This document shows positions 14,436-27,479 of a DNA stretch of 62,507 nt, piece by piece. Numbering within the stretch: the stretch's first letter is position 1; the number at the start of each line of letters is the position of its first letter. Where the stretch lies: assembly GCA_913778085.1 (NCBI GenBank), contig CAJYXJ010000026.1, positions 1-62,507 of the forward strand, given 5' to 3'. The stretch is from an uncultured Chryseobacterium sp. (GTDB lineage Bacteria; Bacteroidota; Bacteroidia; Flavobacteriales; Weeksellaceae). The notes beneath the pieces were generated by a model. It had not been told where the DNA came from and made no database searches. It saw only the letters and a program-made list of their open reading frames with translations. The translations under genes were made by a program, and so were the position numbers.

Positions 14436-17400
14436 CTACATCGTCTCCATCTTAAAGCTCATGCTTTCAATTACTTTCAGGATAGCTTCTACCGTATCCA
14501 TGGAGGTAAGACAAGGAACACCGTTTTCTACGGACATTCTTCTGATCTGGAATCCGTCTCTCTCGGCCTGCTTTCCTTTGGTGGTAGTGTTGACCACATA
14601 CTGCACTTTTCCTTTTTGAATCAGGTCGATCAGGTTCACGCTTTCTTCTCCTATCTTATATCCTATTTTGCAAGGGATTCCTTTTTCCTCAAAGAATTTA
14701 GCCGTTCCTTCCGTCGCCCAGATCCTGAATCCGACCTCATGGAATCTCGCTGCCAGATCAGCCGCTTCCTGTTTATGCTTGTCTGCCACGGTGAATAAAA
14801 TGGAACCGTGCATCGGAACTTTTCTTCCTGCGGCGACCAATCCTTTATAAAGGGCTTTTTCAAGCGTTGTATCTTTTCCCATGACTTCTCCGGTAGACTT
14901 CATTTCAGGACCCAGGGAGATGTCTACTTTCGTTAGTTTGGAGAAAGAGAACACCGGTACTTTTACAAAAACCCCTTCTTTGTTCGGAACCAGGCCGTTT
15001 TTATAACCAAGATCGGTTAGTTTCTGACCTAAAATTGCCTTCGTTGCCAGGTTAGCCATCGGTACCTCCGTGATTTTGGAAAGGAAAGGAACCGTTCTTG
15101 ATGAACGCGGATTCACCTCGATTACATAGACATTGCCCTCAAAAAGGACGTACTGGATATTCATCAAACCAACCACTTTGAGGCCTTTTGCCAATCTTTG
15201 GGTATAATCCACCAGCGTATCTACTTCACTCTGGGAAATATTCTGCGGAGGATATACGGCGATGGAGTCTCCGGAGTGAACCCCTGCTCTTTCGATGTGT
15301 TCCATGATTCCCGGAATCACAACCGTTTCACCATCGCAGATGGCATCTACCTCGATTTCTTTTCCGACCATATACCGGTCAACCAATACCGGATGTTCCG
15401 GGCTTGCGTCTACCGCGAATTCCATATAATGTGCCAGTTCGTTTTCGGAGTATACGATCTCCATGGCACGGCCTCCCAAAACGTAGCTCGGACGTACCAA
15501 AACCGGATAACCGATTTCATTGGCAATCTTTATCGCTTCCTCTTTTGAGGTGGATGTTTTTCCTAAAGGTTGAGGAATTCCCATTTCCTGAAGGGCTTTT
15601 TCAAATTTATCCCTGTTTTCCGCACGGTCAAGGTCTTCCAAGGTAGTCCCTAAGATCTGAACCCCGTGAGCAGCCAGTTTATCCGCTAAATTGATGGCCG
15701 TCTGCCCACCGAACTGTACCACAACCCCTTTCGGCTGTTCAAGCTCGATGATGTTCATTACATCTTCTTCTGTCAATGGCTCGAAATACAGCTTATCCGA
15801 GATCGAGAAGTCGGTGGAAACCGTTTCCGGGTTATTGTTGATGATGATGGCTTCGTACCCCATTTCTTTAATGGCCCAAACCGAATGAACGGTTGCATAA
15901 TCAAACTCAACTCCCTGCCCGATTCTGATCGGTCCTGAACCAAGAACAATGATTTTTTCTTTATCGGAAACCACGCTTTCGTTTTCCTCTTCATAGGTTC
16001 CGTAGAAGTAAGGCGTCTCGGATTCAAATTCCGCGGCGCAGGTATCCACCATTTTATACACCGGCATGATAGCGTTTTCTTTTCTGAAGTTGAAAACCTC
16101 CCGCTCCTTTACGTCCCAGAGAACCGCGATGTTTACATCGGCAAAGCCTAATCTCTTGGCTTCAATTAAAGTTTCTTTGTTAAATTTATTTTCAGCGATG
16201 GTCTTTTCGAAATCAACCAGCTTTTTCAGTTTCCAGATGAAGAACTTATCGATCTTGCTCCACTCCACGATCTGTTCCCAATCGTATCCTCTTCTCAAAG
16301 CATCCCCGATGATGAACAGTCTTTCGTCATCACATACCCTGATTCTTCTTTCGATTTCTTCAGCGGTAAGAGCCGCAGCCTGCTTGGTTTTTAAACCCAA
16401 ATGTCTGATCCCGGTTTCTAAAGAACGGATGGCCTTCTGTAAGGATTCCTCGAAGTTTCTCCCTATCGCCATCACCTCACCTGTCGCTTTCATCTGGGTA
16501 GATAATCTTCGGTCTGCCGTTTCAAATTTATCGAACGGGAATCTCGGGAATTTGGTTACCACATAATCCAGCGCCGGCTCGAAGCAGGCATATGTTTTCC
16601 CCGTTACCGGGTTCATGATTTCGTCTAAGGTCAATCCTACTGCGATTTTTGCAGCGATTTTCGCAATCGGGTAACCCGTTGCTTTAGAAGCTAAGGCTGA
16701 TGATCGGGAAACCCTAGGGTTTACCTCGATGATATAGTAGTTGAAAGAGTGCGGGTCTAAAGCCAGCTGCACGTTACATCCTCCTTCGATTCCCAACGCT
16801 CTGATGATTTTCAGGGAAGCATTTCTCAACAATTGGTATTCTCTGTCCGAAAGCGTCTGGGAAGGTGCTACTACGATAGAGTCTCCCGTATGAACTCCAA
16901 CCGGGTCGATGTTCTCCATGTTACACACCACGATCGCATTGTCATTGGCATCACGCATTACCTCATACTCGATTTCTTTGAAACCGGCGATGGACTTTTC
17001 GATCAGACACTGCGTTACCGGGCTGTGTTTTAATCCCAGTTCTGCAATTTCTTTCAGTTCTGCTTCATTGGAAGCGATTCCGCCTCCTGTTCCTCCCATG
17101 GTGAAGGCAGGACGGACGATTACCGGATAACCGATTCTGTCGGCAAAATTCAATGCACCTTCTACCGTATTTACGATATCGGATTCAGGTACCGGCTCAT
17201 TAAGTTCCCTCATCAGCTCACGGAAAAGGTCACGGTCTTCCGCTCTGTTGATCGCTGAAAGCTTGGTTCCCAATACTTCCACTTTGCATTCTTCAAGGAT
17301 CCCTGATTTTTCCAGCTCTACCGCCATGTTCAGTCCGGTTTGCCCTCCCAACGTCGGTAACAAAGCGTCCGGGCGTTCTTTTCTGATAATGTGGCTTACA

Positions 17401-17618
17401 AACTGAAGGGAAATCGGTTCGATATACACCTTGTCTGCGATTTCCACATCCGTCATGATCGTTGCCGGGTTGGAGTTGATCAGGATAACCTTGTAACCTT
17501 CTTCTCTTAAAGATAAACAAGCCTGAGTTCCTGCATAATCGAATTCAGCTGCCTGACCGATGATGATGGGTCCTGATCCGATTACCAAAATTGTTTTTAT
17601 ATCTGTACGTTTTGCCAT
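14436..17618 (-). CDS. carB: Carbamoyl-phosphate synthase large subunit
   Basis: A protein of 1060 residues when started at the ATG at 17618 ([16 protein letters not shown]). The frame stays open 32 codons further, but those codons run through intercistronic hairpins and read as low-complexity Asn-rich sequence. Two homologous ATP-grasp halves are visible, each opening with a GSGPIxIGQ motif (the second [19 protein letters not shown]). The C-terminal MGS-like allosteric domain includes [21 protein letters not shown]. With CarA it makes carbamoyl phosphate from glutamine, bicarbonate and 2 ATP for pyrimidine and arginine synthesis. It is the last gene after pyrB and carA. Confidence 0.97.
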
Positions 17619-17642
17619 TTTAATTTTTTTAATTTTTCCGTC

Positions 17643-17754
17643 ACGGAGGTTATCCGTATTCATTGTTGTTTTGCACGGTTTTGGGCCGTGGTTATTGTTG
17701 TTGAACCATTTCATGGTTCGGTTGATATATCATTCCATCATGCGGATGAAACCG
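17643..17754 (-). other. Array of short hairpins between carA and carB
   Basis: The 153-bp spacer holds successive inverted repeats: CGGTT/AACCG (17719-17754), GAACCAT/ATGGTTC (17703-17719, 7 bp, 3-nt loop), CACGG/CCGTG (17674-17690) and ACGGA/TCCGT (17643-17657). On the transcript strand the last three hairpins are separated by linkers that both contain ACAACAAT. No terminator T-run follows any of them. They could tune carB translation or mRNA processing. This is inference from structure only. Confidence 0.6.
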
Positions 17755-17771
17755 ATATATTTTACGGATTG

Positions 17772-18854
17772 TTAAACCGGTACATTTTTAAATTCGTTCA
17801 TCATATCGATGAAATCATCAAACAGATAATTTGCATCTTCAGGACCCGGGCTTGCTTCCGGGTGGTACTGTACGGAGAAACAAGGGTGGATTTTATGTTT
17901 CAGACCTTCATTGGTTCTGTCGTTCAGTGCGATATGCGTTTCAATAAGATCCGTGTCTTTTAAACTTTCCTGATCTACGGCATAGCCATGGTTTTGGGAA
18001 GTGATGGCCACCTTGTTTTTTTCCAGATCCAGAACCGGGTGATTCCCTCCTCTGTGCCCGAATTTTAACTTGAATGTTTTTGCGCCGCAAGCCAGACCGA
18101 TCAGCTGGTGTCCTAAGCAGATCCCGAAGATCGGCACTTTTCCTAAGATTCCGCGGATCATTTCCAGGGCCTGCTGGTTGTCTTCAGGGTCGCCGGGACC
18201 GTTGGATAACATAACGCCGTCCGGATTCATCAGCAGGATCTCTTCTGCCGTTACATCCTGGGAAACAACAGTAATGTCGCAGTTTCTCTGAGAGAGTTCG
18301 CGGATGATTCCCAGTTTGGAACCGAAATCCACCAATACTACTTTTAAGCCTCTTCCCGGATTAGCGTACGGTGTCTTGGTAGATACCGTTTCCACCTGAT
18401 TGGTCGGGAACGTGGTTGATTTTAGTTCTGCAACCACCGTGCTTTCGTCTGCATCGGCATTTACAATTTTTCCTTTTACAACGCCGTAGTTACGAAGCAC
18501 TCTGGTAAGCCTTCTGGTATCGATGCCGGAAATTCCCGAAAGATTCTTCTTTTTAAACAGCTCATCCAAGGTGATCTGTGTACGGAAATTGGACGGAAAA
18601 TCGCAGAGTTCTTTCACGATCAGCCCTTTGATGGCCGGCTCGATGCTTTCATAATCATCACGGTTAATACCATAATTACCGATAAGCGGATACGTCATGC
18701 AAACGATCTGTCCGCAGTAGGAAGGGTCGGAAATAAGTTCCTGATACCCTGTCATTCCGGTATTGAAAACCACTTCTCCTGCCGTTTCCAATGCTGCTCC
18801 GAAACCTTCTCCATGAAACACTTCACCGGACTCCAGTATTAATTTTTTCTTCAT
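17772..18854 (-). CDS. carA: Carbamoyl-phosphate synthase small subunit (glutaminase)
   Basis: A 360-residue protein of normal length. The N-terminal CPSase domain ([20 protein letters not shown], about 15-34) is followed by a class I glutamine amidotransferase domain. Its catalytic Cys is C246 in [11 protein letters not shown] and the His/Glu pair H331/E333 in [11 protein letters not shown]. It hydrolyses glutamine and channels ammonia to CarB. It lies about 180 bp downstream of pyrB, with a repeat in between, and 153 bp upstream of carB. Confidence 0.97.
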
Positions 18855-19032: not shown

Positions 19033-19923
19033 TTATTTAAAGGTATACCCTTCTTTTTCCAAAGCTTCCTTTAATATGGCCATTCTCGCGAAAACGCCGT
19101 TCTGCATCTGCCTGAATATCCTTGAACGTTCACATTCCACCAGATCCGTATCGATTTCCACGCCGCGGTTGATGGGTGCCGGGTGCATGATGATCGCTTC
19201 TTTTTTCATGGCTTTCTCCCTTTCCTTTGTCAATCCGTATTTTCTGTGGTATTCTGAAGCGGAGAAGCTCATTTTAGAATCATGTCTTTCATGCTGGATT
19301 CTCAATAACATCAAGACGTCTACTTCGTGAATCAGCTCGTCAACGCTCAGATAGGTGCCGTTGATCAGGGCTCCTTCGTCGAACCATTGTTCCGGGCCGG
19401 AGAAATACACTTTTGCACCTAATCTTCTCAACGCTTCCGCATTGGAATTGGCGACCCTGCTGTGTTTTACATCACCTACGATGCCGACTTTCAGGCCTTC
19501 AAATTTCCCGAATTCCTGGTAGATCGTCATCAGGTCGAGCATACACTGGGACGGGTGGTTTCCGGTACCGTCACCACCGTTGATCACGGGGATCTTAATA
19601 TTTTTCAGCTCATCGAAATACCGGTCTTTTTTGTCTCTGATCACCACCAGGTTTACGCCGAGGCTTTCGATCGTTTTTACCGTATCGTATAAGCTTTCCC
19701 CTTTGTTTACGGAACTGTTTGAGGCATCAAACGGAACCACCTGCAGTCCTAATTTTCTTTCGGCAATATCAAAACTTGTTTTGGTTCTGGTGCTGTCTTC
19801 AAAGAAAAGGTTGGAACAGAAAACCTCGCCTTCTATCTTGGCAGTCTTCCCTTCTGCAAAAGCCAATGCTTCCTGTACTATTCGGTTGATTCTCTCGGTG
19901 CTCAGTTCTGTAATCGTAAACAT
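19033..19923 (-). CDS. pyrB: Aspartate carbamoyltransferase catalytic chain
   Basis: A 296-residue ATCase. It joins carbamoyl phosphate to aspartate, the committed step of pyrimidine synthesis. The carbamoyl-phosphate loop reads [13 protein letters not shown] (about 40-52), [12 protein letters not shown] is the usual central motif, and [10 protein letters not shown] (about 245-254) binds near the active site. No pyrI regulatory chain follows; carA and carB are next. Transcription begins at the consensus promoter at 20049-20080 and passes through an attenuator-like leader. I therefore expect control at the level of termination by pyrimidine nucleotides, although no PyrR gene or PyrR-binding loop was recognised. 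Confidence 0.95.
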
Positions 19924-19941
19924 AATATTTTAAAATTTTTA

Positions 19942-19972
19942 CAAAAAAAAAGCGAAGAAAATATCTTCGCTT
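19942..19972 (-). terminator. Intrinsic terminator in the pyrB leader (attenuator)
   Basis: On the minus strand AAGCGAAG, a short ATATTTT-type loop, CTTCGCTT and then an uninterrupted run of T, all about 20 nt before the pyrB ATG. This is a textbook Rho-independent terminator standing between promoter and gene, so pyrB expression must depend on read-through. Confidence 0.85.
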
Positions 19973-20042
19973 AAAATAAATAAATATCGTAAAGGGCGTC
20001 TACGCCCGGTAATTCTAATGATATAAATACTGTGTTATTCAT
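19971..20042 (-). CDS. Candidate pyr leader peptide (23 aa)
   Basis: An ATG at 20042 opens a 23-codon frame whose TAA (19973-19971) touches the first arm of the terminator. It begins MNNTVFISLELPG and ends DALYDIYLF. The final codons are U-rich in the RNA (TTTACGATATTTATTTATTTTAA). A GC hairpin (GGGCG/CGCCC) lies within the frame, where a pause hairpin sits in E. coli pyrL. The ATG lies about 7 nt after the -7 element, so the transcript would be leaderless or nearly so. Coding is inference; no Shine-Dalgarno sequence is available. Confidence 0.5.
   Translation of the reverse strand: MNNTVFISLELPGVDALYDIYLF
19994..20007 (-). promoter_or_regulatory. GC-rich hairpin in pyrB leader (candidate pause site)
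   Basis: GGGCG TAGA CGCCC forms a compact stem-loop, followed on the transcript by a U-rich stretch and then the terminator. Together with a 7-bp CTAATGA/TCATTAG pair at the 5' end of the leader, it gives the order hairpin, pause hairpin, U-rich, terminator. Confidence 0.55.
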
Positions 20043-20048
20043 TAGGTG

Positions 20049-20080
20049 CAAAGATACAACAATTCTTCAAAATGACAAAA
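20049..20080 (-). promoter_or_regulatory. Consensus promoter of pyrB
   Basis: On the minus strand TTTTG (20080-20076), 19 nt, TATCTTTG (20056-20049): an exact match to the Bacteroidota -33/-7 pattern, identical in spacing to the tRNA-Ser promoter. Predicted start of transcription is about 20042-20044. Confidence 0.8.
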
Positions 20081-20130
20081 CAGAATGTAGTTGTTTTTTA
20101 ATTTTAGAACAGAAATATTCTGCATATACT

Positions 20131-21312
20131 TTAACGGGCAAGCCTGATTCCCGTAAACTGCCATTGCAGCCGCGCATGAAAAAAATTACGGTAGGTATTC
20201 CTGCTGTGCCCTTCCGGAGTTGCGATGGAAGCACCGCGTAAAACCATCTGATTAACCATAAATTTTCCGTTATATTCTCCTACGGCTCCGGCTACTTTTT
20301 TAAATCCCGGATACGGCAGGTAAGCACTTCCTGTCCACTCCCAGCGTTTTCCCCAATCGAAATGTTCCGACGCCACTTCCCATTCGGCTTCTGTGGGTAA
20401 ACGCATTCCTTTCCATGAAGCAAACGCTGAAGCTTCGTAGAAATTAATATGGGTAACCGCTTCTTCAGGATTTACTTTAATCAATCCTTTTAAGGTGTAT
20501 TGCATCCATGTTCCATCAACGAAATGCCAGTACAACGGAGCTTTTGCCTGGTTTTCCTTTACCCATTCCCAGCCTTCCGCATGCCAGTAACGAAAATCGG
20601 AATAGCCGCCATCCTCAATAAATTCAAGATATTCAGCATTGTTTACGAGGCCGGAAGAAATTTCAAAATCATTCAGATATACTTTATGACGGTTCAGTTC
20701 GTTGTCAAAACAAAAGCCTTCGCCTTTAAATCCTATTTCATAAACTTCTTCCGGAAAAGAAATCATCCGTGATTTCCGGATTCCCGTTTCTTCTATATCA
20801 CTATGTTCATCATAGGCCGGAAATAAAGGATTATGGCCTAAGATAAATTTTATGTCGGTCAGGAGCAGCTCCTGATGCTGTTGTTCGTGGTTTAGGCCTA
20901 ACTCAAACAGTTTGCTGAGATCTTCAGACAGATGATGTGTAGCCAGGAAATTATTCATTTGTTTATCCACATATTCCCGGTACCTATAAATGTCCGATAC
21001 GGAGGGCCGGCTTAAATTTCCCCGGTCCGTACGGATCACTCTTGCCCCAATGGTTTCATAATAACTGTTGAAGACAAAATTATACTGCGGATCGAAAACT
21101 TCGTATCCTTCAAAATTCGGGATCAAAATAAAGGTTTCAAAAAACCAGGTGGTATGCCCCAAATGCCATTTTGGCGGACTGACGTCAACCACTGGCTGAA
21201 CGACATAATCTTCAATAGCAAGCGGTTTACAGATCTCAACGGAACGGTTTCTGATTTTTGTGTAATTTTCAAGAAGTACCTTTTCCCGGGATAGAATATT
21301 TTGTCCGACCAT
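20131..21312 (-). CDS. egtB: EgtB-type sulfoxide synthase (ergothioneine biosynthesis)
   Basis: A 393-residue protein. A DinB-like N-terminal domain supplies iron-binding His residues (WHLGHTTWFFETF, about 48-60, and HEQQHQELLLTD, about 142-153). An FGE-sulfatase/C-type-lectin-like domain follows, with LPTEAEWEVASEHFDWGKRW and, at the C-terminus, LRGASIATPEGHSRNTYRNF. EgtB enzymes join trimethylhistidine with a cysteine-containing thiol using O2 and non-haem iron. It is 17 bp downstream of egtD, forming a two-gene unit. No egtA, egtC or egtE gene is next to it, so the sulfur donor may be cysteine and the lyase may lie elsewhere. Confidence 0.88.
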   Translation of the reverse strand: MVGQNILSREKVLLENYTKIRNRSVEICKPLAIEDYVVQPVVDVSPPKWHLGHTTWFFETFILIPNFEGYEVFDPQYNFVFNSYYETIGARVIRTDRGNLSRPSVSDIYRYREYVDKQMNNFLATHHLSEDLSKLFELGLNHEQQHQELLLTDIKFILGHNPLFPAYDEHSDIEETGIRKSRMISFPEEVYEIGFKGEGFCFDNELNRHKVYLNDFEISSGLVNNAEYLEFIEDGGYSDFRYWHAEGWEWVKENQAKAPLYWHFVDGTWMQYTLKGLIKVNPEEAVTHINFYEASAFASWKGMRLPTEAEWEVASEHFDWGKRWEWTGSAYLPYPGFKKVAGAVGEYNGKFMVNQMVLRGASIATPEGHSRNTYRNFFHARLQWQFTGIRLAR

Positions 21313-21329
21313 AATTTTACCTTATTATA

Positions 21330-22319
21330 TTATACAACTTTCCAGATCGCATCGATAAACCAGCCTTTAGCGTCTGCAATATGCTTAACCGGCTGAAACC
21401 CATTTTTTACAGCCATCGCATCGGTTTCTTCAGGAGCATATTTCTGCGAGATTTCCATATAGATGGCTTCATTTTCTTTAAAATCAATGAATTGATTCCC
21501 AATTCTCACATGCTGCTCTTCCAGACTGATGAGATAGCTTCTGCAAGCTCCCGAAAGCGGATCATACGTCTGGTAGTGTTTGAACTTACTGATATCGAAA
21601 CGGGCATCAAGCTCGTTGTTGATTCTTTCTAAAAGATTAAGATTGAAAGCTGCGGTGATTCCTGCTTTATCATTATAAGCGGAAAGAATAATGTCCGGAT
21701 CTTTCTTCAGATCAAAACCAATCAGAAGAATATCTCCGGGATTAAGCTTTTTGCGTAACTCGTTGCAGAACTGATAGGCTTCCTCCACTTCCATATTGCC
21801 GATGTTCCCGCCTAAGAACAAGATAACTTTTCTTCGCGACGAAATGCTGTTGGCTTTATCGAGCATTTCAAAATATTCACCATTCAGACCGATCAGATCA
21901 AGAGCAGGAATTTCCTTTGAAAGACGCTCCTGAAGAACAGAAATGATATTTCCTGAAATATCGATCGGCATATACGTAAAATCAGCTTTCCGGTCGACAA
22001 GATATTTAAGAAGATGGGATGATTTTGTAGCATCGCCCGCACCCAGTTCAACCAGATCAAACGATGCATCAAATGCTTTGATTGCCTGTACGATTTCTTC
22101 TTTTTTATCGGTAAAAATTTCCAGTTCGCAACCGGTAAGATAATATTCCGGCATGCTCATGATCTGCTGGAAAAGCACATCACCTTTCTGATCGTAAAAA
22201 TATTTGGAAAACAGATGTTTGGGATTATCTTTCAGGCCTTTGACAATTTCGATTTCAAATTTTTGATGGCTTTCACAGTATTCGCAGGAAATCGTTTCCA
22301 TAGATATATTCTGGTCCAT
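21330..22319 (-). CDS. egtD: L-histidine N(alpha)-methyltransferase
   Basis: A 329-residue methyltransferase of the EgtD family (Methyltransf_33). It trimethylates histidine to hercynine with three SAM. Seen are YYLTGCELEIFTD (about 59-71), the SAM-binding VELGAGDATKSSHLL (about 90-104), the IDISGNIISVLQERL segment, FLGGNIGNMEVEEA and LLIGFDLKKDP. It is the first gene of the egtD-egtB unit and divergent from the Lrp/AsnC regulator across 165 bp. Confidence 0.92.
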   Translation of the reverse strand: MDQNISMETISCEYCESHQKFEIEIVKGLKDNPKHLFSKYFYDQKGDVLFQQIMSMPEYYLTGCELEIFTDKKEEIVQAIKAFDASFDLVELGAGDATKSSHLLKYLVDRKADFTYMPIDISGNIISVLQERLSKEIPALDLIGLNGEYFEMLDKANSISSRRKVILFLGGNIGNMEVEEAYQFCNELRKKLNPGDILLIGFDLKKDPDIILSAYNDKAGITAAFNLNLLERINNELDARFDISKFKHYQTYDPLSGACRSYLISLEEQHVRIGNQFIDFKENEAIYMEISQKYAPEETDAMAVKNGFQPVKHIADAKGWFIDAIWKVV

Positions 22320-22484: not shown

Positions 22485-22946
22485 ATGGATTTAAAAGACA
22501 GGATGATTCTAAGTATTATTCAGGAAGACTCAACTTTATCAGTAAAGGAAATTTCGGAGAGAATAGGACTGACCTTTACCCCAACCTATGAACGGATCAA
22601 ACAGCTGGAAAAGAACGGAATTATCGAGAAATATGTAGGCCTTTTAAACCGTGAGAAACTGGGACTGAATATTGTGGTGTACTGCAACGTCCGCCTGAAG
22701 GAACAGTCAAAAAAGGTTCTGGAAACGTTTGAGAAAAATATTATGCAGTATGATGAAGTACAGGAAATCATCAGCCTTTCCGGCGAATACGATTATATGC
22801 TGAAAATTATTGCCAAAGACATTAATTCTTATAACGCCTTTACGGTGAACGTGATTTCAAATATCCCGAATATCGGGCAATACCACAGCTCTATTGTGCT
22901 TCATGAAGTGAAAAAGTCTACCAAATTTAAGATTGATTTGGATTAA
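22485..22946 (+). CDS. Lrp/AsnC family transcriptional regulator
   Basis: A 153-residue protein with an N-terminal winged HTH (MILSIIQEDSTLSVKEISER, then LTFTPTYERIKQLEKNGII) and a C-terminal RAM ligand-binding domain (VYCNVRLKEQSKKVLETF, YDYMLKIIAKDINSYNAF). Lrp-type proteins sense amino acids and control their metabolism. It lies between egtDB and the arginine operon, so either could be its target. This is inference from position alone. The gene has its own promoter and is followed by a 157-bp inverted-repeat element. Confidence 0.9.
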   Translation: MDLKDRMILSIIQEDSTLSVKEISERIGLTFTPTYERIKQLEKNGIIEKYVGLLNREKLGLNIVVYCNVRLKEQSKKVLETFEKNIMQYDEVQEIISLSGEYDYMLKIIAKDINSYNAFTVNVISNIPNIGQYHSSIVLHEVKKSTKFKIDLD

Positions 22947-22949
22947 TTA

Positions 22950-23106
22950 AACGCAAAGTTTTAACTAAATATTGCGAAATGAAAAGGAGCAAAGAGGCTG
23001 GCATAGCCGGTCATGAAGCTTACGGATATAAGGCCGCTTCATCGATCAGCTTGCTGATCATTCTTTTGCCCCCTTAATTTTTACCCGTAAAATAAAACTT
23101 TGCGTT
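22950..23106. repeat. MITE-like element with 14-bp terminal inverted repeats
   Basis: The 157-bp stretch is bounded by AACGCAAAGTTTTA (22950-22963) and its exact complement (23093-23106). Inside are a 16-nt palindrome GATCAGCTTGCTGATC (23043-23058) and TGAAGC/GCTTCA arms. It codes for nothing and sits between the converging ends of the Lrp gene and argH. Relatives of the AACGCAAAGTTTT terminus are common in Chryseobacterium spacers, from memory. Confidence 0.65.
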
Positions 23107-23144
23107 AGAAGAAATCAGAGTCGATTTTAGATCTTTGTTATAAA

Positions 23145-24449
23145 TTATCCCCGTAATTTATTTTTCACCTTATTAAACTGATACTCTATTTTATCCAGAC
23201 AAAGATTGCTAATACTTCCCTGATGGGTATGCTCTAAATTTTCAATTTTAAAATCAAACGTGTTGTTTTCAATTTCCTGTCCGACCTTAACGTAAGCATC
23301 CCGGAAAGAGCTGCCGTTTTTCACTTCTTCGTTGATTTTCTCTACACTAAATAGGTATTTATACTTTTCATCCTCTAAAATGCCATCTTTTACCTGAATA
23401 TTGGGCAACGTATAATTTAAGATTTCCAGACATTCTTTCAACGAATCAATCGCGGGGAAAAGGATCTCCTTTGTCAACTGCATATCGCGGTGGTAACCGG
23501 ACGGAAGATTGTTGGTTAGTAAAATAAACTCATTCGGTACCGACTGGATTCTGCTGCACCGCGCGCGGACCAGCTCGAAGATGTCCGGGTTTTTCTTGTG
23601 CGGCATAATGCTGCTTCCCGTCGTAAATTCTTTCGGAAAACTTATGAAATCAAAATTCTGGCTCAGATACAAACAGACATCGTATGAAAATTTCCCTAAG
23701 GTTCCTGCCAGGGTCGCCATTGCCATCGCGAGCAACTTCTCCGATTTTCCACGGGTCATCTGCGCGTATACCGCATTGTAATTCATCGATTGAAAGCCCA
23801 GATGGTAAGTGGTGCTTTCCCGATTGATCGGAAATGAAGAGCCGTAGCCTGCCGCCGAACCTAAAGGGTTTTTATTAATGATATTTTTAACGGAAAAGAG
23901 CATTTCCATATCATCCAGCAGTGCTTCCGCATACGCGCCGAACCATAATCCGAAGGAGGAAGGCATTGCGATCTGCAAATGGGTATAGCCCGGAAGCAGC
24001 ACCTTTTTATGCTGTTCCGCCAGTCGGATCAACAGCTGGAAAAATTCATCCGTTAAAGCCGTAATTTCTCTGATTTCATCCAGTAAATACAATTTAATAT
24101 CCAGTAGAACCTGATCGTTTCTCGATCTCGCTGTATGAATTTTTTTCCCGGTATCACCCAGCCTCTCAATTAAAACCGATTCGATTTGGGAATGGATGTC
24201 CTCCGCATTTTTATCGATTTCAAAATTTCCACTTTCTATGTTTTCTAAAATTTCCGCTAAGACAGACAGCATTTGTTCTGACTCTTCATCAGAAATAATC
24301 CCGACTTCCGCCAGCATTTTGCAGTGTGCCATGGAACCTTTGACGTCGTATTTCGCCAGACGCTCATCAAAATCGAGATCTTTTCCAACGGTAAATGTAT
24401 TAACTAATATATTGGTGGCAAGGTCGTCCTTCTGCCATATTTTTTTCAT
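23145..24449 (-). CDS. argH: Argininosuccinate lyase
   Basis: A 434-residue enzyme of the fumarase/aspartase superfamily that cleaves argininosuccinate to arginine and fumarate. Seen are HTARSRNDQV (105-114), PGYTHLQIAMP (about 153-163) and the signature loop TTGSSIMPHKKNPD (276-289), which holds the catalytic Ser. It is the last gene of the arginine operon, separated from argE by a 155-bp spacer with repeat-like sequence. It converges with the Lrp gene. Confidence 0.97.
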   Translation of the reverse strand: MKKIWQKDDLATNILVNTFTVGKDLDFDERLAKYDVKGSMAHCKMLAEVGIISDEESEQMLSVLAEILENIESGNFEIDKNAEDIHSQIESVLIERLGDTGKKIHTARSRNDQVLLDIKLYLLDEIREITALTDEFFQLLIRLAEQHKKVLLPGYTHLQIAMPSSFGLWFGAYAEALLDDMEMLFSVKNIINKNPLGSAAGYGSSFPINRESTTYHLGFQSMNYNAVYAQMTRGKSEKLLAMAMATLAGTLGKFSYDVCLYLSQNFDFISFPKEFTTGSSIMPHKKNPDIFELVRARCSRIQSVPNEFILLTNNLPSGYHRDMQLTKEILFPAIDSLKECLEILNYTLPNIQVKDGILEDEKYKYLFSVEKINEEVKNGSSFRDAYVKVGQEIENNTFDFKIENLEHTHQGSISNLCLDKIEYQFNKVKNKLRG

Positions 24450-24604
24450 AAGTTTCTATTTTGTTGGAAGATGGAAGCAGGAGGCCGGAAGTTTACTACG
24501 AACTGCTCTATCTTCATTTAATTGTAAAAATTTGTCATGTATCCAGAAAAAAGGCCGGTTTGCAGGTATCATTTACTTCCAGCATCCATCGCCCCGCTTT
24601 CAGC

Positions 24605-25687
24605 CTACAAAACCCTCTCCAGAATCTTGATATAAACTTCAATTCCCTCTTCGATTTCTTCAATATAAATAAATTCATCTGCGGTGTGGGAACGCGTGCT
24701 GTCGCCTGGACCCAGCTTTACCGAGGTACACGGAATGATCGCCTGGTCGGAGGAGGTCGGTGAACCATAAGTGGTCCTGCCTATTTCCAATCCAGCTTTT
24801 ACAAACGGATGATCCAAGGCAATTTTTGAGGAATTTAACCGGAATGACCTCGCCGTTAAAACCGATTTCATCTGGGACTGAATGATTTCGAAGACTTCTC
24901 TGTTGGAATATTCGTCCGTCACCCTCACATCCAGCGTGAAAGTACATGATTCCGGAACGACATTGTGCTGGACGCCCGCATGAATGCCTGAAAGCGTTAC
25001 CTTAATTTCACCCAGATAATCGGAAACCTTTGGAAATTTAAAGTTTAAAATATGCTGCAGGTCTTCCATGCATTTTACAATGGAATTATCCTTGTTCGGA
25101 TGAGCGGCATGGGAAGGCGTTCCTTTCATTTCTCCATCGATCACCAGCAGACCTTTTTCTGCAATGGCCAGATTCATTTGGGTCGGTTCTCCTACGATAG
25201 CGAGTTCTATATTCGGAAGTTGCGGGAATAAGGCTTCGATCCCGTCAAAACCGGATATTTCTTCTTCGGCAGAGAGCGCGATGATCAGATTATACTGTAA
25301 ATCTTCTCTGTCATAAAAGTATAAAAAAACCTGCGCCATCGAAACCAGAGAGGCTCCTGCATCATTGCTTCCCAACCCGAATAATTTCCCGTCTTTTTCA
25401 ATGGGTAAAAACGGATCCAGGGTATAGGCTTTGTTCGGTTTTACCGTATCGTGATGGGTATTCAGCAGAATTGATGGTTTGAATACATCGAAATTTCTGT
25501 TCACCGCCCAAATATTGTTTTTAAAACGTTTGGTGGGGATCCCATGCTTTTTGAAAAAATTTTCAATTTCTACGGAAGTATTGAATTCATCCTTACTGAA
25601 AGACGGAATTTCAATAAGATTTTTCAGTAATTCTATCGCGTTGTTCAGCAATTCTTCTTTGCTATAAACAGATCTCAGTTCCTGCAT
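24605..25687 (-). CDS. argE: N-acylornithine deacetylase, M20 family
   Basis: A 360-residue M20 metallopeptidase. The metal ligands are H78 and D80 (NTHHDTV), D109 (GSNDAG) and E141/E142 (SAEEE, the general base), with a dimerisation insert between about 170 and 280. It removes the acyl group from N-acetyl- or N-succinyl-ornithine or citrulline. With an argF'-type carbamoyltransferase in the same operon, acylcitrulline is the likely substrate. It overlaps the argB stop by 26 nt, which suggests translational coupling. Confidence 0.9.
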   Translation of the reverse strand: MQELRSVYSKEELLNNAIELLKNLIEIPSFSKDEFNTSVEIENFFKKHGIPTKRFKNNIWAVNRNFDVFKPSILLNTHHDTVKPNKAYTLDPFLPIEKDGKLFGLGSNDAGASLVSMAQVFLYFYDREDLQYNLIIALSAEEEISGFDGIEALFPQLPNIELAIVGEPTQMNLAIAEKGLLVIDGEMKGTPSHAAHPNKDNSIVKCMEDLQHILNFKFPKVSDYLGEIKVTLSGIHAGVQHNVVPESCTFTLDVRVTDEYSNREVFEIIQSQMKSVLTARSFRLNSSKIALDHPFVKAGLEIGRTTYGSPTSSDQAIIPCTSVKLGPGDSTRSHTADEFIYIEEIEEGIEVYIKILERVL

Positions 25688-26456
25688 GATGGTTTTCGAT
25701 ATGGTTTTTCAGTTGGGTTTCTTTTATTAAGAATACCTTGTTTACATTATTTCTTATGGCTCCCAGCGCATTTTCAAGCTTGGGTAGAATTCCTTTGTGC
25801 AATTTCCCTTCGTTTTTCAAAAGGGAAAATTCCTGTTCGGAAATATTTTTAATCAGAGATTCCGGATTATTTACGTCTTCCAAAACCCCTTCTTTATCAA
25901 AACAGTAGACCAATTCCACATCATATTTTACGGATAAAGCCTGGGCGATCACCGAAGCAATCGTATCTGCATTGGTATTGAAAAGGTGTCCTTTTTTATC
26001 ATGGGTGATAGCGGAAAAGACAGGCACGAGTTCGAGCTTCAGCAACTTGGCAATCAGTTTTCTGTTTACCCCTTTCTCGGTAATATCGCCTACGAATCCG
26101 AAATCGATTTCCGCATCTTCCCTTTTTTTAGCCTTAATTAAATTCGCATCCGCCCCTGAAAAGCCGATGGCCTTGCATTTTTTCTGCTGAAGCCTGGCCA
26201 CGATATTTTTATTGATGCCGCCAGCATAGACCATGGCCACCAGATCCAGGGTTTCTTTATCCGTAATCCGGCGTCCGTTCACCATCTTCTGCTCGATTCC
26301 AAGTTTATCCGCCAAAGTCGTAGCAAGCTTCCCTCCGCCATGAACCAGGATCTTTTTCTCCCCGATCCCCGCAAACTGTTCCAGGAATTCGTCGAGCAGC
26401 TCCTCATCGTCGATCAGTGCGCCGCCAATTTTTACGATGTATAACTTTTCTTTCAT
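25662..26456 (-). CDS. argB: Acetylglutamate kinase family protein
   Basis: A 264-residue amino-acid kinase. Seen are VKIGGALIDDEELL, the glycine-rich loop VHGGGKLATTLADKLG (about 39-54), NGRRITDKETLD and the nucleotide-binding region FNTNADTIASVIAQAL. It phosphorylates the gamma-carboxyl of N-acylglutamate. Bacteroidota may use the succinyl form. The gene follows a perfect 33-bp palindrome downstream of argF' and overlaps argE. Confidence 0.95.
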   Translation of the reverse strand: MKEKLYIVKIGGALIDDEELLDEFLEQFAGIGEKKILVHGGGKLATTLADKLGIEQKMVNGRRITDKETLDLVAMVYAGGINKNIVARLQQKKCKAIGFSGADANLIKAKKREDAEIDFGFVGDITEKGVNRKLIAKLLKLELVPVFSAITHDKKGHLFNTNADTIASVIAQALSVKYDVELVYCFDKEGVLEDVNNPESLIKNISEQEFSLLKNEGKLHKGILPKLENALGAIRNNVNKVFLIKETQLKNHIENHHAGTEICL

Positions 26457-26484
26457 TTTTATCCTTTTTTTCCAAACTTTATTT

Positions 26485-26517
26485 AAACCTCATAGGTTTT
26501 CAAAACCTATGAGGTTT
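26485..26517. repeat. Perfect 33-bp palindrome between argF' and argB
   Basis: AAACCTCATAGGTTTT, a C, then its exact complement: 16 bp of perfect stem with a 1-nt centre. This hairpin sits in a 63-bp gap inside the operon. Copies of the same sequence are frequent in Bacteroidota spacers, from memory. It may modulate operon mRNA stability. Confidence 0.75.
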
Positions 26518-26519
26518 AG

Positions 26520-27479
26520 TTAGTTGGTATTGATTCCATCCAGAATTTCAGAAAACACGGCCTGTGCCGAGAAAATCCTGTTTTTGGCCTGCTGGTAAAT
26601 AATGGAATGTTCCCCATCCATCACCTCATCACTCAGTTCCACATTTCTGCGGACCGGAAGGCAGTGCATTACCTTTGCCTCATGGGTGGCTTTCAGTTTT
26701 TCATTCGTCAGCATCCAGTTTTCTTTTACTTCGGGCATCGCCGCATAATCATCAAATGAAGACCAGTTTTTAACATACACAAAATCGGCATCTTTCAGGG
26801 CTTCTTCCTGGTTATGGATAACCGGTACTTCTTTCGTAAAATTCTTATCCAGATCATAACCTTCCGGATTGGCGATCACGAAATCGACATCCATTTCCTG
26901 CATCCATTCGGCAAAAGAGTTCCCCACGGCTTGTGCAATGGGCTTGATGTGCGGAGCCCAGGTCAGAACAACTTTCGGCTTGCCTTCTTTCTTCCAGTTT
27001 TCTGTAATCGTGATACAATCGGCGAGGCTCTGCAAAGGATGGCGCGTCGCCGATTCCAATGAAATGACCGGAACTTTGGCGTGCTGCTCAAACTGACTTA
27101 AAATACTTTCATTTACATCATCTTCCTTGCTTTTCATGCCGGCAAAACAACGCACGGCGATGATATCGCAATACTGGTTCAGCACCTCGATCGCGTCTTT
27201 GATGTGTTCTACGGTTTCACCGTTCATCACGGCACCGTCAGCAAATTCAAGGTTCCAGGCTTCCTGGGCTGCATTTAGAGTAAGCACATTTAACCCTAAA
27301 TTCTGGGCTGCAATCTGGCTGCTGAGACGTGTTCGTAAACTGGAATTTAAAAAGACCAGTCCGATGGTTTTCCCTTTTCCCTTCTCCGTTTCCGAGAGCG
27401 GATCTTCTTTGATTAATAAAGCTTTTTTTATAATTTCCTGTAAGTTTTCAACATCACTTACAGCGGTGAATTTTTTCAT
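26520..27479 (-). CDS. argF': N-acylornithine carbamoyltransferase (N-succinyl/N-acetylornithine type)
   Basis: A 319-residue transcarbamylase close to the N-succinylornithine enzyme of Bacteroides fragilis and the N-acetylornithine enzyme of Xanthomonas. The carbamoyl-phosphate loop FLNSSLRTRLSSQ (43-55) differs from the STRT loop of normal OTC. Trp75 in AWNLEFADG and ESATRHPLQSLAD are typical of this subgroup, and CLPVRRNVELSDE binds near the C-terminus. Residue 90, reported to set specificity (Pro for succinyl, Glu for acetyl), is Val in NGETVEHIKD. It makes N-acylcitrulline. A 447-bp repeat-filled gap separates it from argD. Confidence 0.9.
   Translation of the reverse strand: MKKFTAVSDVENLQEIIKKALLIKEDPLSETEKGKGKTIGLVFLNSSLRTRLSSQIAAQNLGLNVLTLNAAQEAWNLEFADGAVMNGETVEHIKDAIEVLNQYCDIIAVRCFAGMKSKEDDVNESILSQFEQHAKVPVISLESATRHPLQSLADCITITENWKKEGKPKVVLTWAPHIKPIAQAVGNSFAEWMQEMDVDFVIANPEGYDLDKNFTKEVPVIHNQEEALKDADFVYVKNWSSFDDYAAMPEVKENWMLTNEKLKATHEAKVMHCLPVRRNVELSDEVMDGEHSIIYQQAKNRIFSAQAVFSEILDGINTN

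Follow-up and report, generated by a model that had tools for sequence, protein, structure and literature searches.

The pyrB locus of an uncultured Chryseobacterium sp. raises the question of how a pyrimidine operon is controlled in a genome that holds no PyrR scoring over the profile cut-off. The locus was analyzed within a window of 62,507 nucleotides, i.e., the whole stretch of DNA under study, in which pyrB, carA and carB follow one another on the minus strand (Table 1). All three gene names were taken from NCBIfam with scores above the respective cut-offs, and the genes presumably form one transcript. A sequence-only reading of this DNA had proposed that the pyrB leader is an attenuator built like that of E. 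coli pyrBI, pointing to a promoter, an ATG, a 23-codon frame, a GC hairpin, a U-rich tract and a terminator stem with its T-run. Each of these elements was confirmed in the window sequence. From the comparison described below, we consider it probable that the leader is a translation-coupled, UTP-sensing attenuator like that of E. coli pyrBI, that it is read from a near-leaderless mRNA and that it stands in for PyrR.

Table 1 Features of the pyrB locus in the window
Feature	Positions	Strand	Basis
pyrB, aspartate carbamoyltransferase (ATG at 19923)	19033..19923	-	NF002032, 358.3 bits, cut-off 263
carA, carbamoyl-phosphate synthase small subunit	17772..18854	-	NF009475, 484.4 bits, cut-off 221
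carB, carbamoyl-phosphate synthase large subunit	14436..17714	-	NF003671, 1631.9 bits, cut-off 599
Sigma-A-type promoter: TTTTG 20080-20076, 19-nt spacer, -7 box TATCTTTG 20056-20049	20049..20080	-	Sequence
Leader ORF, 23 codons: ATG 20042-20040, stop TAA 19973-19971 at the terminator stem	19971..20042	-	Frame conservation
H1, 5' hairpin CTAATGA (20045-20039)/TCATTAG (20021-20015), encloses the start codon	20015..20045	-	Accessory, ~10/25 genera
H2, mid-frame hairpin GGGCG-TAGA-CGCCC, candidate pause hairpin	19994..20007	-	Stem versus shuffles
U-rich tract with ATATTT, last ORF codons, candidate UTP-sensitive pause region	19974..19993	-	Composition
Intrinsic terminator: stem 19972-19950 and T-run	19942..19972	-	Fold; compensated changes

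The 23-codon frame of the window translates to MNNTVFISLELPGVDALYDIYLF*, and the 117-nt leader folds with a z-score of -6.1, none of 200 shuffles being equally stable. The 5' hairpin H1, a 7-bp stem holding the ATG in the window, had been absent from the earlier list of elements. Scans for promoters or terminators alone performed near chance in this AT-rich stretch (three promoters of E. coli-type consensus found versus 1.5 expected; one terminator found versus 0.8 expected), and weight was therefore placed on the conservation of the layout among related leaders.

Conservation of the leader layout

Leaders were collected from the family of the window (f1), which we call Weeksellaceae after the NCBI lineage of Chryseobacterium. 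The set comprised 160 sequences, 80 of them from Chryseobacterium and the other 80 from the 94 places found outside the genus in 148 family genomes; the 14 places left out belong to g9 (seven) and g17 (seven). The Chryseobacterium set consisted of the window and 79 of the 80 loci found, two of the 79 being labelled as this genus (g1) by kinship to the window. The remaining locus (L034), whose sequence ends before the gene start, was left out, and a second set of loci from the genus, which overlaps with this one, was not counted apart.

The sequence comparison showed that a promoter-ATG spacing, a reading frame, a contact between stop and terminator, a U tract and the terminator itself recur in these leaders, with no detectable antiterminator and no PyrR over the cut-off. 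The layout was present in 158 of the 160 pyrB leaders and in 25 of the 26 pyrB-bearing genera, with an intrinsic terminator placed between the leader and the pyrimidine biosynthesis genes downstream. Within Chryseobacterium the leaders are almost identical; between genera the sequence diverges strongly and the layout is kept. The parse used for the frame counts (158 of 160) accepts only leaders whose ATG follows a -7-like box by 4-8 nt, and a parse without this demand read 157 of the 160 leaders and misread one (L140). In a MAFFT alignment of 51 of the 160 leaders (A1), compensated changes were observed in five of the nine terminator pairs. Pair counts from this alignment were restricted to the terminator because H1 and H2 are misaligned between genera; the two hairpins were instead tested per leader by script. 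Counts per genus for H2, for antiterminator pairing and for the U tract refer to one leader per genus.

Both leaders that failed to parse (L192 and L193) come from g17, of which two of nine loci were read, and are without the layout. The pyrB of this genus has diverged, its identity to the query being ~51-54% (~52-54% for L192 and L193), and the family as a whole has no PyrR that passes the cut-off. Eight genomes of the family (G125, G127, G136, G138, G145, G146, G157 and G163) gave no pyrB match at E <= 1e-8; it is possible that they lack pyrB and are pyrimidine auxotrophs, or that the gene falls into gaps of incomplete assemblies.

Start and reading frame of the leader

The distance between the -7-like box and the ATG is narrowly kept, being 5-7 nt in 156 of the 157 leaders parsed and 6 nt in the window. 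In Flavobacterium psychrophilum, the sigma-A box TAnnTTTG was mapped at -12 to -5, and leaderless mRNAs made up ~5.5% of those mapped, according to excerpts of the published study (PMC9723704). This box position, together with the spacing to the ATG, places the RNA start 0-2 nt before the ATG and thereby fits the earlier claim that the ATG lies at the expected transcript start. With its 5' end predicted in this way, the leader is probably read from a near-leaderless mRNA. A search of the window's own genome with the pattern TANNTTTGN6ATG gave 129 places, and the reversed pattern, used as a control, gave 69; a moderate share of leaderless starts may therefore exist in this genome. To our knowledge, Bacteroidota are without Shine-Dalgarno signals.

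A second pyr control in E. coli, reiterative addition of U at the promoter, is separate from attenuation itself. No U run was found at the expected start of the leaders studied here: an A directly precedes the ATG in 156 of 158, and one position further upstream there is T or C in 157 of 158.

In 156 of 158 leaders, the ATG frame shows no stop codon until at most 6 nt remain to the terminator core, and the +1 and +2 frames pass the same criterion in 2 and 32 of 158, respectively; the 158 leaders are related and 80 come from one genus, so these counts are not independent. Taken by genus majority, the ATG frame is open in 23 of 25 genera, and the other two frames in 1 and 5 of 25. In 145 of the 158 leaders the ORF has 21-26 codons. 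Its end abuts the terminator core in 144, enters or crosses the terminator in 12 and comes early in two (at -16 in L134 and at -9 in L158). The sequence-only reading had seen the stop touch the terminator in one genome and had suggested a check in others; there, the ATG and its frame were found conserved together with the terminator (23 of 25 genera by majority), and the contact, counting frames that enter or cross the terminator, was found in 156 of 158 leaders.

Some leaders have a different frame end. Two Chryseobacterium leaders (L024 and L048) have a length change before the stop, and their frame enters or crosses the terminator. In two leaders of g2 (L136 and L144), the frame crosses the whole terminator and is still open where the sequence that was read stops, 9 nt inside pyrB, an arrangement nearer to that of E. 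coli pyrL.

The encoded peptides vary widely, and they vary even within Chryseobacterium; MNNTVFISLELPGVDALYDIYLF, MKRTFPLDDLHKGSDAGNYHIYFI, MNLVQNLATLVFGKFADNNNIFYI, METLHPTIQVQDVKFDGLPAIKIFIF and MCRLENIFNLKTEGQGPSQRYCYY are examples, and hydrophobic or aromatic residues are frequent at their C-terminal ends. Since the amino acids differ and the frame stays open, the kept feature appears to be reading by a ribosome as far as the terminator, not a peptide. Translation of the leader frame is supported by this comparison.

Candidate mechanism and its alternatives

For the attenuator proposed here, we infer translation, pausing and a dependence on UTP. Transcription would begin 0-2 nt before the ATG, and the leader peptide would be read from an almost leaderless mRNA. 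RNA polymerase would make H2 and then enter the U-rich tract. At low UTP it would slow in the tract, and the leader ribosome would catch up, reach the stop at the terminator foot (or enter the terminator) and cover the 5' arm of the stem; with the stem blocked, the polymerase would continue into pyrB-carA-carB. With ample UTP, the polymerase would get to the terminator before the ribosome, the stem would form and transcription would stop. Neither PyrR nor an alternative antiterminator hairpin would be required.

The pyrBI leader of E. coli has a U-rich pause region, and a U-rich region upstream of the terminator was likewise found here: in 21 of 25 genera the part of the leader following H2 is richer in U than the part preceding it, and in 22 of 25 the U-richest 12-mer stops 2-7 nt short of the terminator core. 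The motif ATATTT lies inside the tract after H2 in 145 of the 158 leaders, which come from 17 of the 25 genera. Within the tract, 16 genera carry it in frame 1, four in frame 0 and two in frame 2, some genera counting twice; counted anywhere in the ORF, the numbers by frame are 17, 5 and 2 genera. As the motif is read in three frames, it is the nucleotides that appear to matter, not the residues. The U-rich last codons noticed in the window persist among the leaders while their frame and amino acids change. Because neither the peptide nor the frame in which the U tract is read stays constant, an arrest peptide was rejected.

The composition after H2 (279 T and 244 A) describes an A+U-rich tract and, with A so frequent, is by itself no proof of UTP specificity. 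The same translation-coupled attenuator might therefore answer to a signal other than UTP, such as ribosome supply, a stalled nascent peptide or another nucleotide. The frame supports coupling well for this alternative too, and it could draw on the hydrophobic or aromatic last residues and on a tract that is not purely U-rich. We nonetheless regard it as unlikely, because the occurrence of ATATTT in three frames and the varying amino acids speak against a peptide or codon signal, and because the genes controlled make pyrimidines.

In 19 of 25 genera the mid-frame hairpin H2 exceeds its shuffles in stability (p <= 0.1), the other six lying above p = 0.1, and it ends 4-11 nt before ATATTT, a distance near the spacing of hairpin-stabilised pauses. 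The pause in E. coli pyrL was neither hairpin- nor NusA-stabilised in one study, as far as its accessible passages state (PMC9291695), and for this reason the role of H2 as a pause hairpin is offered as a guess.

The hairpin around the start codon is more restricted. Stems of at least 5 bp around the ATG were found in all 28 distinct Chryseobacterium leaders and in 16 of the 17 distinct leaders of g26. H1 is absent or at chance in about 15 of the 25 genera, and the script found no CATT in the searched stretch of many leaders. The pair next to AATG/CATT is T-A in g1, g5, g20, g26 and g32 and C-G in g4, g7, g18, g23 (one leader) and g30, and CATT occurs without that pair in g2, g5 (one), g9, g22, g24 and g27. 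H1 is a lineage feature. It could hinder ribosome loading, and our guess is that, on a 5' end left exposed with no ribosome, it closes the start codon.

Such hairpins might also belong to a structured RNA around H1 and H2, either a protein-binding site or a riboswitch, that governs the terminator without translation. The near-identity of the Chryseobacterium leaders, wobble positions included, the T-A and C-G versions of H1 and the above-chance stability of H2 in 19 of 25 genera would all agree with it. It is very unlikely all the same: across genera the primary sequence and both stem and loop of H2 diverge while the frame stays open, H1 is missing or at chance in most of the genera, 24 of 25 genera have no upstream competitor for the terminator 5' arm beyond chance, and no Rfam match reaches its gathering score.

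To look for this competitor, upstream leader segments were paired with the terminator 5' arm; a single genus of the 25 exceeded its shuffles (p <= 0.05). The ribosome itself is left as the blocker of the terminator, as in E. coli pyrBI. The same result weighs against amino-acid-type attenuation as in trp or his, in which regulatory codons act with an antiterminator. A leader ORF and a terminator do precede a biosynthetic operon here, and clues for leader-peptide attenuation before amino-acid operons of F. psychrophilum are given in excerpts of the study of that species (PMC9723704), but inspection of the peptides by eye revealed no single-codon run common to the genera, and we rejected this alternative as highly improbable. 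A plain constitutive terminator behind a chance ORF is scarcely credible, for although the leader is AT-rich and ~16% of mono-nucleotide shuffles leave the frame unbroken up to the terminator, 156 of the 158 (related) leaders do so in the ATG frame versus 2 and 32 in the others.

A further-reaching form of the translation-coupled UTP sensor is put forward tentatively, and with some doubt. A leaderless minimal sensor of this kind would have replaced PyrR early in most of the family, with ribosomes loading only on the fresh 5' end; in several genera H1 would shut the start codon after ~30 nt, giving one ribosome chance per transcript. If this one-chance reading is true, Bacteroidota would couple transcription and translation kinetically right where their mRNAs begin.

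PyrR, related systems and neighboring genes

PyrR (NF003549) was found over the cut-off neither in the window's own genome nor in any of the 148 family genomes, and was found over it in all 20 genomes from other families of the order. The best match of the PyrR search in the window's own genome is a hypoxanthine phosphoribosyltransferase. At 27 of 28 loci of other Flavobacteriales families (the exception being L215), a motif of our own finds PyrR-like sequence directly before pyrB. Within 19900-20110 of the window, Rfam gave three matches at E <= 1, all far below their gathering scores, and no PyrR RNA element at that threshold. PyrR and its binding loop, which had already gone unrecognised in the sequence-only reading, thus escaped both the profile search and Rfam, and PyrR control and a known Rfam element were rejected as candidates. 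The absence of PyrR over the cut-off in this family and its presence in the other families point to the leader as its likely stand-in.

Model R1 finds well only the pyrB leader in the window's own genome (E 2e-8); the next three matches have E values of 0.2 to 4.4, and the two of them whose surroundings were read (L223 and L224) do not lie before pyr genes. The idea that the genome carries a pyr regulon with several leaders of this type was accordingly rejected. Spread beyond the family was rejected too: a search of 247 genomes of the class gave six matches at E <= 0.01, with filters strict enough that divergent copies could be missed; two of these are pyrB leaders of Chryseobacterium, and the other four are weak and not before pyr genes.

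Among known systems, E. coli pyrBI is alike in that a leader ORF (PyrL) and an intrinsic terminator precede the aspartate carbamoyltransferase gene. There, the ribosome has to be tightly coupled to the polymerase over the leader if the terminator is to be prevented, as stated in excerpts of the source (PMC5021804). When E. coli MG1655 was run as a control, pyrL had 44 codons and 89 nt from ATG to core, its frame reached 46 nt past the core start and its U-richest 12-mer ended 60 nt before the core; by these values, our frame measure fits the known case and our U measure does not. Unlike pyrL, which continues through the terminator, the ORF described here is about half as many codons long and mostly ends at the terminator foot. 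Further differences from pyrBI are the start 0-2 nt from the expected 5' end, the presence of H1 in some genera, the gene order pyrB-carA-carB and the lack of pyrI, PyrI having been found in none of the 15 family genomes tested. The likeness is one of layout, and no sequence homology to pyrL is claimed.

In the rph-pyrE attenuator of E. coli, translation is supplied by a full-length gene and ends a few nucleotides before the terminator; in the leader studied here translation would likewise end just before the terminator, but with a 23-codon ORF. The pyr attenuators of Bacillus subtilis are PyrR-controlled. Attenuators of this type share with the present leader the control of pyrimidine genes by a terminator and differ in the PyrR protein, which was not found over the cut-off here. 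The leader-peptide RNA of Sinorhizobium meliloti trpL begins at its ATG and is leaderless, according to excerpts of the report (PMC7298713); unlike the leader described here, trpL senses tryptophan via codons and alternative hairpins. For Bacteroides thetaiotaomicron, the accessible part of one study describes sORFs in long 5' UTRs as reminiscent of leader peptides (PMC7366714). No report of leader-peptide attenuation of pyrB in Bacteroidetes, of pyrimidine attenuation in Chryseobacterium or of this leader was found in a search that had most subscription journals outside its scope. These comparisons suggest that the leader may be grouped with the pyrBI kind of attenuator, in a form for which we found no report.

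If the UTP-sensing reading is true, translated-leader attenuation that senses UTP exists in Bacteroidota, takes the role of PyrR throughout a family and operates from a start that is nearly leaderless. The leader would then provide a compact natural reporter for whether ribosomes closely follow RNA polymerase in Bacteroidota.

The neighborhood of the operon was also annotated. Directly upstream of the pyrB promoter and on the same strand (20131-22319, minus), two ergothioneine genes were recognized, one EgtB-like (TIGR03440, over the cut-off) and one EgtD-like (TIGR03438, 287.7 bits, just under the cut-off of 290.9). The following region (22485-27455) contains an Lrp-like regulator (under the cut-off), argH (over the cut-off) and an N-acetylornithine carbamoyltransferase-like gene (281.7 bits versus a cut-off of 288). 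Arginine genes are found near pyrB-carAB, and carbamoyl phosphate is common to both.
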